This document shows, piece by piece, positions 28,149 through 34,366 of a stretch of 64,000 bases of DNA. The stretch lies in contig CAJXNL010000003.1 in the NCBI GenBank assembly GCA_913057195.1, forward strand, positions 1 through 64,000, read 5' to 3'. A program made the translations under genes and the position numbers. Within the stretch, counting starts at the first letter, position 1, and each line of letters begins with the position of its first letter. Below the pieces are notes generated by a model. The model had not been told where the DNA came from. It saw nothing but the letters and a program-made list of their open reading frames with translations, and searched no databases. The DNA is from an uncultured Wenzhouxiangella sp. (GTDB taxonomy: Bacteria > Pseudomonadota > Gammaproteobacteria > Xanthomonadales > Wenzhouxiangellaceae).

Positions 28149-28599
28149 AGGCGCGCATGCCGCCTGGGGCTTCAAACTCGACCACGTCGCCTGATTCTTT
28201 ACCGATTAAAGCGCGTGCCAGTGGCGCACTGATGCCCAGGCGTTGCGATTTCGTATCAGCCTCAAGGTCACCCACCAGCTGCCATCGAATTTCCTCGCCG
28301 TCACCCGACTCATCGACCAAGACAACTGTAGCGCCAAACACCACTTTGTCGCCTGGCTCTAAAGTGGCGACATCAATCACACGGGCGTGGCTTAGTGCCG
28401 ACTCCAACTCCTTGATCCGGCCCTCAATAAAGCCTTGCTGCTCGCGAGCGGCGTGATACTCGGCATTTTCTTTCAGATCGCCATGTGCACGCGCCTCCGC
28501 GATGGCCTCGATCACGGCAGGACGGTCCACTTTCTTTAACTGGTTCAGCTCTTCTCGAAGCCGCTCAGCACCTTCTTTGGTGATGGGCACCTGACTCAT
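28117..28599 (-). CDS. greA: Transcription elongation factor GreA
   Basis: Binds RNA polymerase through the secondary channel and triggers cleavage of backtracked transcripts. The 160-residue protein has the N-terminal coiled coil with the acidic tip ([15 protein letters not shown]) and the C-terminal domain block ([15 protein letters not shown]). An excellent AAGGAGG lies 5 bases before the ATG, inside the end of carB, and the start overlaps the carB stop (ATGA). The carA-carB-greA order is common in gammaproteobacteria. Confidence 0.97.
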
Positions 28600-31500
28600 G
28601 GGGCCTCCTTTTTTGAATACAGCTCGTTCAGACTACGGACATCGGTCTCATCCCAATGTGCAAGCGCTCTCAGTGTGGCTTTGGCGCCTGCAATCGTCGT
28701 CGAATAATTGACTTTATTTTGTAATGCCTGGCGCCTGATTGAGAAAGAATCAGCGATCGCCTGACGACCCTCGGTCGTATTCACAATGTAGTCAATGTCG
28801 TGATTTTTGATGGCATCAACAATGTGTGGTCGACCTTGGGTCACCTTGTTGATGTATTCACATTCTACGCCATGCGCAGTCAACGTTTCATAGGTGCCCT
28901 GTGTCGCCACCAAAGAGAACCCCCTCTCTTGCAGCGCCCTGGCTATGGGCACTAAACGGGTCTTATCAGCATCACGCACACTTAAAAAGGCGCGCCCCGA
29001 GCCCGCCGCGTTGATTCCAGCGCCTTTTTGACCACGCGCAACTGCGGCACCAAAGGTCAGCCCCACCCCCATGACTTCGCCAGTCGAGCGCATCTCAGGC
29101 CCAAGAATGGGGTCAACCCCTTGAAACTTAATGAAAGGATAGACAGGCTCTTTGAGGGCATAAAATTTGGCCTCCAAGTCTGAGTCGATGCCTTGTTCGG
29201 TCAATCGATTGCCGATCATACATCGCGCGGCGATCTTTGCCAAAGGCACGCCGGTCGCCTTGGCAACAAACGGGACAGTCCGCGATGCTCGAGGATTGAC
29301 TTCAATCACATAAATGTCGTCGCCTTGAACGGCAAACTGAACGTTCATCAGCCCCACCACATCGAGCGCCTTGGCCATTTGACGCGTTTGCTCGGCAATA
29401 TCCCTGGTAATGGCTTCATCCAGCGAAAACACAGGCAGGCTGCATGAGGAGTCTCCCGAGTGGACGCCAGCCTCTTCAATGTGTTCCATGATGCCCCCGA
29501 TGACCACCGAGTCACCATCACATACGGCGTCCACATCAACCTCAATTGCATGATCCAAAAACCGATCCAGCAACACAGGTGAGTCATTGGACACCTTCAC
29601 CGCCTCGGTCATGTACCGCCTAAGCTCTGATGCATCGTACACGATGTCCATCGCTCGCCCCCCCAACACATAGGACGGCCGCACCACCAACGGGTATCCA
29701 ATTTCCTCGGCCAGCTTCAAGGCTTGGTCATGCGTGCGTGCCGTCCGGTTGGCGGGCTGTTTTAAGCCAAGCTGATTTAACAGCGCTTGGAACCGTTCTC
29801 TGTCCTCGGCCAAATCAATGCAGTCGGGAGTGGTGCCCACAATCGGCGCGCCGTTGGCCTGTAACGCCCGCGCCAGTTTGAGGGGTGTTTGCCCGCCGAA
29901 TTGAATGATCACCCCATCGGGCTTTTCAAGGTGCAATATCTCAAGTACGCTTTCAAGCGTCAACGGCTCAAAATACAGCCGGTCTGAAGTGTCGTAATCG
30001 GTGGAGACTGTCTCAGGGTTGCAGTTGACCATGATCGTCTCATAGCCCATCTCTCGCATTGCCATTGCAGCGTGAACACAGCAGTAGTCAAACTCAATGC
30101 CTTGGCCGATCCGATTGGGTCCACCACCCAGCACCACAATCTTTTTGTGGTCATTGACGTTCGCCTCGCAGGCTTCGCCCCAGGTCGAATACATGTAGGC
30201 CGTGGTGCTCTCAAATTCGGCCGCACAGGTATCCACACGTCTATATGCTGGATGAAGGCCAAACTGATGACGCAGTCCACGAACTTTGTCTTCTTCAACC
30301 TCGAGCAGCGAGGCCAGCCGCGCATCGGAGAAACCCTGACGTTTTAGTGAAAGCAACCGAGAGGCATTCAGCTCAGACAGTCCCCCGTTTGCCACATCGA
30401 GCTCAACCTCAACAAGTTCACTGATTTGATCGATGAACCACGGATCAATGTGGGTGAGCTGATGGACTTGCTCTGCCCCAAGACCCACACGCAGCGCTTG
30501 AGCCACATACAGCAATCGATCCGGTCCCGCCTGCGACAGCTCGCGCTTTAAAAGATCAAGCTCAGGGGTTTCGTGTTCCAAGACAGGCGGCGTGTCCAAG
30601 CCGGATAATCCAGTCTCCATGCTGCAAAGTGCTTTTTGAAAAGACTCTTGGAACGTCCGGCCGATGGCCATGGCCTCGCCGACAGACTTCATTTGGGTCG
30701 TCAAGCGGTCATTCGCCGCGGGAAATTTCTCAAACGTGAATCGGGGGATTTTTGTGACCACATAATCAAGGCTGGGCTCAAAAGATGCCGGCGTCTGTCC
30801 CCCGGTGATCTCATTTTGCAACTCATCCAGGGTGTACCCAACTGCCAGCTTGGCGGCCACTTTGGCAATTGGAAAGCCGGTGGCTTTGGAGGCCAACGCC
30901 GAGGACCGAGAGACTCTGGGGTTCATCTCGATGACGACGATACGGCCATCATCGGGGTTCACCGCAAATTGAACGTTGGAGCCCCCTGTATCCACCCCAA
31001 TTTTACGGAGCACAGCAATCGCCGCATTTCGGAGCATTTGATACTCACGATCAGTGAGTGTTTGCGCAGGCGCCACAGTCACCGAATCGCCGGTGTGAAT
31101 GCCCATAGGATCGATGTTTTCGATCGAGCAGATAATGATGCAGTTGTCTGCGTGATCCCGAACCACCTCAAGCTCAAACTCTTTCCAGCCCAGCACCGAC
31201 TCTTCGAGCAGCACCTCTGTCGTGGGAGAAAGCTCAAGCCCATGGCTGACAATCTCATGGAACTCTTCTTTGTTGTACGCAATGCCGCCGCCTGAACCGC
31301 CCAGCGTGAATGATGGCCGAATAATGGTGGGGAATCCGATGTCCTCTTGAATTTTGACAGCTTCATCCAGCCCGTGAGCCACCCGTGCCTTGGGGACCCC
31401 CAGACCGATCTCACCCATGGCCACGCGAAATTGCTCGCGGTCTTCGGCCATATCAATGGCGAGCTTGGATGCACCGATCATCTCAACGCCATAGGTTGCC

Positions 31501-31823
31501 AGCACCCCCTCACGATCGAGATCAAGCGCACAGTTCAGGGCGGTTTGTCCACCCATGGTGGGCAAGATGGCATCGGGCTTTTCTTTGGCGATGACTTCTT
31601 TGACGGTCTCCCACCGAATCGGCTCAATGTAGACAGCATCGGCAAGATCGGGGTCGGTCATGATCGTGGCCGGGTTGGAATTGACCAGGATCACACGATA
31701 ACCCTCCTCTCGAAGGGCCCGAACAGCCTGCACACCCGAGTAGTCAAACTCGCAGGCTTGTCCGATCACGATCGGGCCGGCGCCCACGATGAGAATCGAG
31801 TGAATGTCTTCTCTCTTAGGCAT
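28596..31823 (-). CDS. carB: Carbamoyl-phosphate synthase large subunit
   Basis: Makes carbamoyl phosphate for arginine and pyrimidine synthesis. The 1075-residue chain shows the internal duplication: two ATP-grasp halves beginning [20 protein letters not shown] and [20 protein letters not shown]-terminal MGS-like allosteric domain (about 935-1075) follows, containing [11 protein letters not shown] and [10 protein letters not shown]. It overlaps carA by 8 bases and greA by 4 bases. Confidence 0.98.
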
Positions 31824-32955
31824 GATCAGACCTCACCCAACGCATAAAAACGGAAAACAGCGGATACAAATCATGCGGCCCGGGGCTGGCTTCGGGGTGG
31901 CCCTGAAAGCCCATTGCACGTTTGCCCTCGATGCGAATGCCCTGAATACTGCCATCAAACAGTGATTGATGGGTGGGGATCACATGAGGGGGCAAATCCG
32001 CTGAATCAACGGCAAAGCCATGGTTTTGACTCGTAATAAACACCTCACCAGTGTCAAGATCGCGCACTGGATGGTTCGCCCCGTGGTGGCCATGTTTCAT
32101 CTTTTGTGTTCGAGCACCTGCGCCCAGGGCCAGCAGCTGATGGCCAAGACAAATACCAAACGTCGGTACATCACGCGCCAGCAGTTCGCCGACAAGTTCG
32201 ATGGCGTATCCACAAGGCTCGGGATCGCCTGGTCCGTTCGAAAGCAACACGCCTTGAGGCGCCAGCGCCAACACATCCTCGATCGTTGCCTGACCTGGCA
32301 CCACGGTCACACGGCAACCCGACTCGACCAGCAACCTAAGGATATTGCGCTTGGTCCCAAAATCCACGCAAACAATATGCGGCCCGTTCGCAGGCGATTT
32401 TGACTGGGCCTGGTCTGGCTTCAGTTGTACCAGGCCCTCAGTCCACTCATAAGAGGTTTTGGCGCCCACGCCCTGAGCCAGGTCCAAACCCGCCATGGAG
32501 GGGCAGGCTTGAGCGCGCTTAATCGCCTCGCCCGCATCGATGTCCTCACCGACCATCAGACACCCATTGCGTGAGCCGTGCTCGCGAAGGTGCTGAGTCA
32601 GCGTCCGAGTATCCAATCCAGAAATACCCGGTCTTTGGTGATCTTTTAAAAATCCGTCCAGCGACTGCGTCGCGCGCCATGAGGAGACGCACCGAGGGTA
32701 ATCTCTCACAATCAGGCCCGCGCAATGCATTTGATCAGATTCTTGATCTTTTGGATTCACGCCGGTGTTGCCCACATGGGCCGCGGTGAGGGTCACCAGT
32801 TGCCCGGCATAGCTCGGATCGGTGATGATTTCCTGATAGCCCGTCATGGCGGTGTTAAACACCACCTCACCTGTGGCGATGCCGGGCGCACCAAAACCCT
32901 CACCAGAAAACAGTTCCCCGTCTTCCAGTGCCAGTATTGCCTGCAAATGGGACAA
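31816..32955 (-). CDS. carA: Carbamoyl-phosphate synthase small subunit
   Basis: Glutamine amidotransferase subunit supplying ammonia to CarB. The N-terminal domain has [15 protein letters not shown]; the class I amidotransferase domain has the nucleophile elbow [15 protein letters not shown] and the His-Glu pair in [12 protein letters not shown] place the start at TTG 32955, which gives 379 residues and lines up with the usual CarA N-terminus; GGAGG lies 11 bases upstream. The frame is open back to a TTG at 33009, so a longer form cannot be excluded. The ribosome binding site lies in the 3' arm of a hairpin. Confidence 0.93.
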
Positions 32956-32964
32956 TGTCTTAAG

Positions 32965-33007
32965 GACCTCCGGTTTTAGGGCACACAATGTGCTCCGTCC
33001 GGAGGTC
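32965..33007 (-). promoter_or_regulatory. Hairpin that would mask the carA ribosome binding site
   Basis: GACCTCCGG (32965-32973) and CCGGAGGTC (32999-33007) are perfect inverted repeats, 9 bp. Nested inside are GCACA (32981-32985) and TGTGC (32989-32993), a 5-bp stem with a 3-base loop. In the carA mRNA the GGAGG Shine-Dalgarno is in the 3' arm of the outer stem. No T-run follows, so it is not a typical terminator. A translational switch is inferred from structure. Confidence 0.65.
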
Positions 33008-33038
33008 AATTGTAACGAATCCCCCGGCGCTGAACCAG

Positions 33039-33518
33039 CTAAATACTCAAAAACTCAGGAATTTCATCCATCGGGCGGAACGTGGCGGCGCCGTGGCCTT
33101 GATCAAGCAGGTAGTCCAACCATTTGACCAACGCCCGATTTAAACGCCAACTGCGAACCACCTGCCCATGGACGGGAAGTCCAGGCCCAGCCAAGCGCTC
33201 AATGCCCTGCTCTGGACTGAACGCGGTGGCCTCGGCCATGTGCGCATCGTGGTAAATCCGGATATAGGCGTTGGGGTTTTGAACACGCGAGCCGGAAAAA
33301 ACATACGTCAGCTGCAAATATGACGTGTAGTCGTGTCGCTCCAAAACGTTAAGATACAAATCCGCACTGCCCGGCACGCTGGAGATCAAGCAATCGGCGC
33401 GCGCCAAAGCATCAGGCAGCAGCAGATGTAAGGCCCGATAGATCGTCGCGTGCAACTCAGGCAGCTGGCGGGCACACCGCTGCACCTGGGGTCTTTGTGT
33501 ATCGACGCGGGTCAACAT
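33039..33518 (-). CDS. DUF1249 protein (YqiB-like)
   Basis: A 159-residue protein matching the DUF1249/YqiB family in the central block YTSYLQLTYVF and in AYIRIYHDAHMAEA, with the LVKWLDYLLDQG stretch near the C-terminus. Its function is unknown. I chose ATG 33518; a TTG at 33557 overlapping the ppsR stop would add 13 residues. A -10-like TATAGT ends 6 bases before this ATG, so transcription may begin at the start codon itself. Confidence 0.8.
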   Translation of the reverse strand: MLTRVDTQRPQVQRCARQLPELHATIYRALHLLLPDALARADCLISSVPGSADLYLNVLERHDYTSYLQLTYVFSGSRVQNPNAYIRIYHDAHMAEATAFSPEQGIERLAGPGLPVHGQVVRSWRLNRALVKWLDYLLDQGHGAATFRPMDEIPEFLSI

Positions 33519-33553
33519 CCGAGCACTATACCAAATGCTTTGTATTCGGCTGC

Positions 33554-34366
33554 TCAATCAGCTCGTTGCAGCCCCTGGCTCAGCAAAATGCGACTGGCGA
33601 GCTCCTCAATCGACGATCCCGTCGAAGACAGCTGCGGAACGCCTTCGGCGCGAAGCATGGCCTCAGCCGCCTCAACCTCATAACGACACTGCTTGATCGA
33701 CGCATAGCGGCTCCCGGGGCGCCGCAACTCTCGAATCTTACTGAGGCGATGAGGTTCAATCGTCAACCCAAACAGCTTGTGTTTGTGCTTTCTCAAAAAC
33801 TCTGGAAGGCGCGGTTGCTCCAAGTCCTCTTCGGTCAACGGATAATTGGCGGCTTTAATGCCGTAGTGCAATGCCATATACAAGCAAGTTGGCGTTTTAC
33901 CCGACCGCGATACCCCCACCAAAATGACCTCAGCCTGATCAAGCTTTTGTGAGATGCCATCATCATGGGTCAAGGCATAATTGGTGGCCTCCATTCGATC
34001 CTCATAGACGCCCCGATCGCCCATGCCGTGTGCTTGGCCCACACTGGGTTTTCTTTTCTGACCGATGGCTTTTTCAATGCGGTCTATAAAATGATCAAAA
34101 AGATTAAAAACGTGCGCATCAGCGTCTGAAATGATCTGGGTAACGTCAGGGTCCACCGTGGTTGTGAAGACCAAACTGGGTTCCCCGCTCACTTGGCTGG
34201 CTTGATTGATCAGCCCAAGCGAGTCGCGCGCTTTAGAAGGCGTGTCGACAAAAGGCAGACGGATTTGGCGAAACTCCAGCTCACCAAACTGCGTCAGAAG
34301 GCTGTGACCAAAGGTTTCTGCGGTGATGGCCGTGCCATCGGAGACAAAGAAAACGGTTCGTTTCAT
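33554..34366 (-). CDS. ppsR: PEP synthase regulatory protein (bifunctional kinase/pyrophosphorylase)
   Basis: DUF299 family enzyme, 270 residues, that phosphorylates PEP synthase using ADP and reverses it with phosphate. The N-terminal VFFVSDGTAITAE block and the P-loop GVSRSGKTPTCLYMAL are characteristic. It is divergent from ppsA with 58 bases between the starts, the usual pairing, so its target is clear from context. Confidence 0.95.
   Translation of the reverse strand: MKRTVFFVSDGTAITAETFGHSLLTQFGELEFRQIRLPFVDTPSKARDSLGLINQASQVSGEPSLVFTTTVDPDVTQIISDADAHVFNLFDHFIDRIEKAIGQKRKPSVGQAHGMGDRGVYEDRMEATNYALTHDDGISQKLDQAEVILVGVSRSGKTPTCLYMALHYGIKAANYPLTEEDLEQPRLPEFLRKHKHKLFGLTIEPHRLSKIRELRRPGSRYASIKQCRYEVEAAEAMLRAEGVPQLSSTGSSIEELASRILLSQGLQRAD

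Follow-up and report, generated by a model that had tools for sequence, protein, structure and literature searches.

A pairing between the mRNA 5' end and the Shine-Dalgarno region of carA in Wenzhouxiangella and related families suggests pyrC-type start-site control

Described start-site switches and carA control

The main known cases of gene control by a start-site switch that responds to initiating nucleotides are a few pyrimidine genes of enterobacteria. In E. coli pyrC, translation is blocked at high CTP via a shift of the transcription start site, and pyrD may be regulated by a pyrC-like mechanism (PMC4491880). The E. coli pyrC sequence runs from TATCCT through five bases (N5) and T6 to CCGG, and the arm carrying the Shine-Dalgarno (SD) sequence reads CCGGAG. 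In pyrD of E. coli and Salmonella, a CCCGG in the start region pairs beside the SD, and we read the E. coli hairpin as lying just upstream of the SD, not over it.

At the E. coli carAB operon, ArgR acts at promoter P2 and the other regulators at P1. The regulation comprises ArgR, PurR, PepA, PyrH, IHF and UTP-dependent reiterative transcription. A term search of an account of carAB control (PMC6245113) brought up no pyrC-type switch at this operon. In the betaproteobacterium Polynucleobacter, an orphan carA motif, an extended hairpin just upstream of the ribosome binding site (RBS), has been proposed as a riboswitch candidate (PMC8632094). Searches of openly available papers gave no account of a start-site switch at carA for the order to which Wenzhouxiangella is assigned here.

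The carA leader and its promoter

The window, i.e., the whole stretch of DNA analysed, comprises 64,000 nt from an uncultured Wenzhouxiangella sp. (GCA_913057195.1, contig CAJXNL010000003.1, positions 1 to 64,000). On its minus strand, carA (31816..32955) encodes the small subunit of carbamoyl-phosphate synthase (379 aa; PF00988, E=1e-50, and PF00117, E=9e-48, by domain search) and is followed by carB (28596..31823, minus strand; PF02786/PF02787/PF02142), the second gene of the operon, and then by greA. Upstream of carA and co-directional with it is a DUF1249 gene (33039..33557, minus strand; PF06853) that ends at 33039. Judged by its sequence context, the start codon of carA is most likely the TTG at 32955-32953, which lies 11 nt after a GGAGG and within a TTGTCC that is kept in most relatives. 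The initial annotation had pointed to a frame open through the leader from a TTG at 33009. As a start of carA this TTG is rejected as an artefact of extending the open frame to its limit, and it overlaps a -10 box, the last base of which is its first T.

A hairpin sequestering the carA RBS had been proposed in the initial annotation, and its parts are confirmed. On the minus strand, all 9 nt of the 5' arm GACCTCCGG (33007-32999) are complementary to the 3' arm CCGGAGGTC (32973-32965), a 5-bp inner stem, GCACA-UUG-UGUGC (32981..32993), is nested between them in the RNA fold, and the SD GGAGG (32971-32967) lies within the 3' arm. What had been overlooked is a promoter adjoining the 5' arm, and its presence suggests a pyrC-like switch between transcription starts. 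Its -10 box, TACAAT (33014-33009), is followed by six bases and then by CCGG, and from promoter to start codon the minus strand reads TACAAT-TGACCT-CCGGACGGAGCACATTGTGTGCCCTAAAACCGGAGGTCCTTAAGACA-TTG. The putative -35 element, CTGGTT (33033..33038, minus strand), is separated from the -10 box by an 18-nt spacer and adjoins the stop codon of the upstream gene; its match to the consensus is weak, although its CTGG is kept in most leaders of the genus. Because of this weak -35, the carA promoter was missed by a generic scan for consensus promoters.

With the start predicted from the -10 box, the RNA would begin within the 5' arm, and the main transcript would have only the inner pairing, between CCGG at 33002-32999 (positions 7-10 after the -10 box) and CCGG at 32973-32970. 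The 9-bp hairpin thus stands as an exact repeat in the DNA, but only part of it is likely to occur in the transcript of carA's own promoter. Read-through RNA from the DUF1249 gene would carry the full hairpin and would be poorly translated. In folding predictions, RNA beginning at 33007 reached -25 kcal/mol (z = -5.3), while the whole fold of RNA beginning at 33002 was no better than shuffles (z = 0.09). Since transcripts with the predicted start fold no better than shuffles, stability alone is no evidence, and the case for the element is made instead by position-specific conservation and covariation.

Distance to the -10 box and the match to E. coli pyrC predict alternative starts at C7 (33002), C8 (33001) and G9 (33000). 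Among start positions counted from the -10 box, 7 nt is preferred over 8 and 8 over 9, and no initiating base is less favoured than C (PMC2613000). A conserved C7C8 at the start site therefore needs a reason.

Conservation and covariation of the pairing

The carA leaders of 28 members of Wenzhouxiangella were compared. The -10 box is TACAAT or TAGAAT and the SD is GGAGG in all 28, and in 24 of them CCGG stands at a constant distance, exactly at positions 7-10 after the -10 box, with neighbouring positions drifting. Information content is 1.2-1.4 bits at CCGG, 0.04-0.6 bits at positions 1-6 and 0.2-0.9 bits at positions 12-20. Conservation does not extend to the outer pairs of the window's 9-bp arm (positions 2-5), which already differ in the close relatives L003 and L005. 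The four leaders lacking CCGG at positions 7-10 are L006 and L009, which lack CCGG at the SD as well and have TCGG in its place there, and L010 and L015, in which a displaced complement can be read from the sequences (CCAGGT/ACCTGG and CCGGG/CCCGG). W. limi, whose locus L034 shares its contig with L006, no longer has the CCGG. Depending on the leader, the SD lies 31 to 95 nt away from position 7. The pattern TANAATN6CCGG occurs five times in the 1.78-Mb genome of the window (a control pattern, twice), and by inspection the copy at carA is the only one that has an SD and a gene start downstream. Inspection of pyrB, pyrC and pyrD of the genus found no such element. In Wenzhouxiangella (L315-L341), pyrB comes directly after another reading frame, which may be ruvX/YqgF, and the copies inspected have no leader of their own.

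The self-complementarity of CCGG and the GC-richness of the leaders might suggest a palindrome that arose by chance, or else a DNA operator, but the exact placement of the inverted repeat after the -10 box and its covariation across families (below) make either reading hardly credible. The spacing of the arms is too variable for an operator, and that candidate was rejected.

The comparison was extended to carA leaders of further families in the order, whose limits follow the database used (NCBI places Wenzhouxiangella in Chromatiales). Their -10 boxes were picked by score alone, except that one (L248) was reassigned by hand to the hexamer of its family. Three of these families, designated f2, f3 and f12, carry a related element: positions 7-9 are TCG in 29/31 leaders of f2 (TTG in the other two) and in 2/3 of f3, and CCG or TCG in 27/27 of f12. 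The RNA there begins YCGCC and faces GGCGR, or GTGAG or GCGAG, around the SD. Position 7 and its partner in the SD arm form C-G in 22 cases and U-A in 20, with one exception (U with C).

Covariation was assessed on 30 distinct arm pairs, the two arms being joined and anchored on the -10 box and on SD motifs that were chosen by eye. Pairing was found in 80.7% of cells, against 63.1% in shuffled data (0/500 shuffles reaching the observed value) and at most 43% in slid registers; the covariation score was 0.408, against 0.176 shuffled (0/500) and 0.193 for the best slid register; and 25 cells were changed on both sides, against 11.2 in shuffles. For two of the five measures there is no clear excess over shuffles: 3 pairs covary (shuffled mean 2.7), and there are 10 further pair types (shuffled mean 8.1; 52/500). 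The sequences are also related by phylogeny. Little variation occurs at pairs 8 and 9, and the covariation comes mainly from pairs 7 and 10. In duplex energy, positions 7-12 of Wenzhouxiangella give -6.6 with the cognate SD region and -3.5 to -3.7 with those of other families. Cognate combinations are thus stronger than those obtained by swapping arms between Wenzhouxiangella and the other families, and no shuffled 5' arm attains the observed mean in any of the three large groups. For gammaproteobacteria that do not belong to the order, positions 7-12 show no greater complementarity to the SD region than neighbouring windows do, and CCGG follows a -10-like hexamer in 1/71 leaders. Within the family, other genera have a 5' end that matches a different downstream site, as does a further family, f8. 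Taken comparatively, pairing of the 5' end with the SD is well supported by these alignments, covarying across four families of the order. The compensatory changes in homologues on which the initial annotation had staked its hairpin are present, and the element passes that test.

The initial annotation had gone on to consider a ligand- or protein-controlled switch. A riboswitch or protein-binding hairpin governing access to the SD has a possible parallel in the orphan carA motif of betaproteobacteria, which, as described in PMC8632094, likewise has an upstream promoter and a hairpin that directly precedes the carA RBS; the two were compared by description only. That motif was proposed to bind a ligand, and its description reports no relation to the start site. 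For the leaders studied here such a switch is improbable: neither the window nor its relatives gave an Rfam match at the gathering threshold or at E<=1, the conserved letters are those of the two pairing arms only, relatives disagree in loop and inner stem, and the length of leader between start and SD varies over the range given above.

Predicted start-site effects and the leader hairpin of relatives

The window shares three features with pyrC of E. coli and Salmonella. Its layout after the -10 box, N5-T6-C7-C8-G9-G10, is identical, and offers C7 (and C8) and G9 as start positions (TACAAT TGACCT CCGG); the mRNA 5' end is complementary to its own SD region (33002-32999 with 32973-32970), as the pyrC 5' end is to a CCGG overlapping the SD; and in prediction the SD is masked from an upstream start and open from a G start. 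The predicted cost of opening the SD (GGAG) of the window is 4.5 kcal/mol for RNA beginning at position 6, 2.9 at C7, 0.6 at C8 and 0.4 at G9, and that of E. coli pyrC is 6.2 kcal/mol from C7 and 2.5 from G9. Over the genus, the predicted drop between starts 7 and 9 averages about 1 kcal/mol and is at least 1 kcal/mol in 15/28 leaders. The start-site effect is thus clear in the predictions for the window and several other leaders, and weaker or absent in some.

We consider that the carA hairpin probably represents control of the pyrC type, with the mRNA 5' end folded onto its own SD, and we infer from pyrC that CTP would operate the switch. RNA polymerase at the TACAAT promoter would start at C7, C8 or G9. 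With ample CTP it would start at C7, giving a transcript 5'-CCGGA... that could pair with the CCGG overlapping the SD and block ribosome binding. When CTP is low (and GTP relatively high), starts would move to G9, or in the species of the window already to C8, and the pairs holding the SD would be lost; the freed SD would then allow CarA and CarB to be made. The gene for the first step that arginine and pyrimidine synthesis have in common would in this way be turned down by a start one or two letters earlier.

A pairing that is real but constitutive, setting a low rate of translation or shielding the mRNA 5' end from decay, would account for its conservation and covariation, and would suit the modest average of the predicted start-site effects. 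It appears unlikely, however, since the retention of Y7-C8-G9 (disfavoured pyrimidines followed by G9) and the match to pyrC suggest that the choice of start matters.

The proposed switch differs from its described counterparts in several ways. Like pyrC, carA serves pyrimidine synthesis, but it also serves arginine synthesis; its element is found in Wenzhouxiangella and related families, where switching is a prediction, its letters vary between families, and the leaders of relatives are longer and have extra hairpins. The pyrD element belongs to a different gene, and its hairpin does not cover the SD. E. coli carAB makes the same operon product, faces the same physiological problem and has initiation-coupled nucleotide sensing at P1, but the window lacks the GUUU start of that promoter and control of its carA is predicted at translation. 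ArgR (Arg_repressor, PF01316) was not found in any of 30 Wenzhouxiangella genomes, including that of the window, with control genomes giving matches; arginine control of carAB in its E. coli form therefore cannot operate in the genus.

Most relatives have a further hairpin before the RBS, followed by a U-rich tail, and in the clade of the window this has degenerated to a short stem without a U run. The inner stem GCACA-UUG-UGUGC is probably the remnant of this larger hairpin, to which it would be homologous. In a survey of one genome per family across Gammaproteobacteria (L286-L314, with L044, L092, L122 and L014), the pattern GGGA..UCCC..UUU was present before the carA RBS in 19/30 families, against 0.085 in shuffles. 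It has no Rfam family, and it looks like an undescribed, class-wide carA attenuator. This pattern, and the many relatives in which U3-6 follows the hairpin, would favour a reading of the leader hairpin as a conditional terminator upstream of the RBS, which could coexist with start-site switching in relatives having the U-tailed hairpin. As an account of the window it is very unlikely: its short inner hairpin is followed by CCUAAAA, without a U run (L003-L005 likewise have none), and leader reading frames preceded by an SD occur in just 3/28, 0/31 and 0/27 of the relatives, giving no sign of a leader peptide. Attenuators of the pyrBI or amino-acid type were rejected for the window on the same two grounds. 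The scarcity of SD-preceded start codons also speaks against the earlier suggestion of control by ribosomes on an upstream frame, the TTG of which (33009) shares a base with the -10 box and precedes the predicted start.

In f8 (L120, L122, L124, L127, L214, L274-L284), the 5' end at position 7 is GCTTAGA (GCTTGGA in 1/16, L278), which can pair with a TCTAAGC where the terminator-like hairpin has its 5' base and is possibly a start-site-dependent antiterminator. In sister genera of Wenzhouxiangella (L026, L027, L030, L031, L117, L119), positions 7-10 are TCG(A/G), and TCGA recurs just 5' of the terminator-like hairpin. These matches to the hairpin base suggest that the 5'-end element changed its partner in evolution. 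In some Wenzhouxiangella leaders (L016, L024, L116), TCGACAAGCGGG-like remnants persist, although CCGG has become the 5' end. It is conceivable, if doubtful, that the carA leader of the order is a switch defined by its 5' end with an evolving target, namely the SD in Wenzhouxiangella, f2, f3 and f12 and, for f8 and the sister genera, the foot of the class-wide terminator-like hairpin. If so, the choice of start would act on translation in certain lineages and on transcription termination in others, and a ligand need not be invoked to account for orphan carA riboswitch candidates.

The proposed mechanism is familiar from E. coli pyrC and, as far as the literature was searched, would be new at carA. 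RBS-sequestering hairpins taken for riboswitches may be start-site switches instead, and repression without a repressor would be recognisable from sequence, as a covarying element fixed right after the -10 box, by a test that can be applied genome-wide. If the pyrC-type reading is true, start-site control of carA operates in a genus in which no ArgR was found, and across a whole gammaproteobacterial order the enzyme at the entry to both arginine and pyrimidine synthesis is under a start-site switch.
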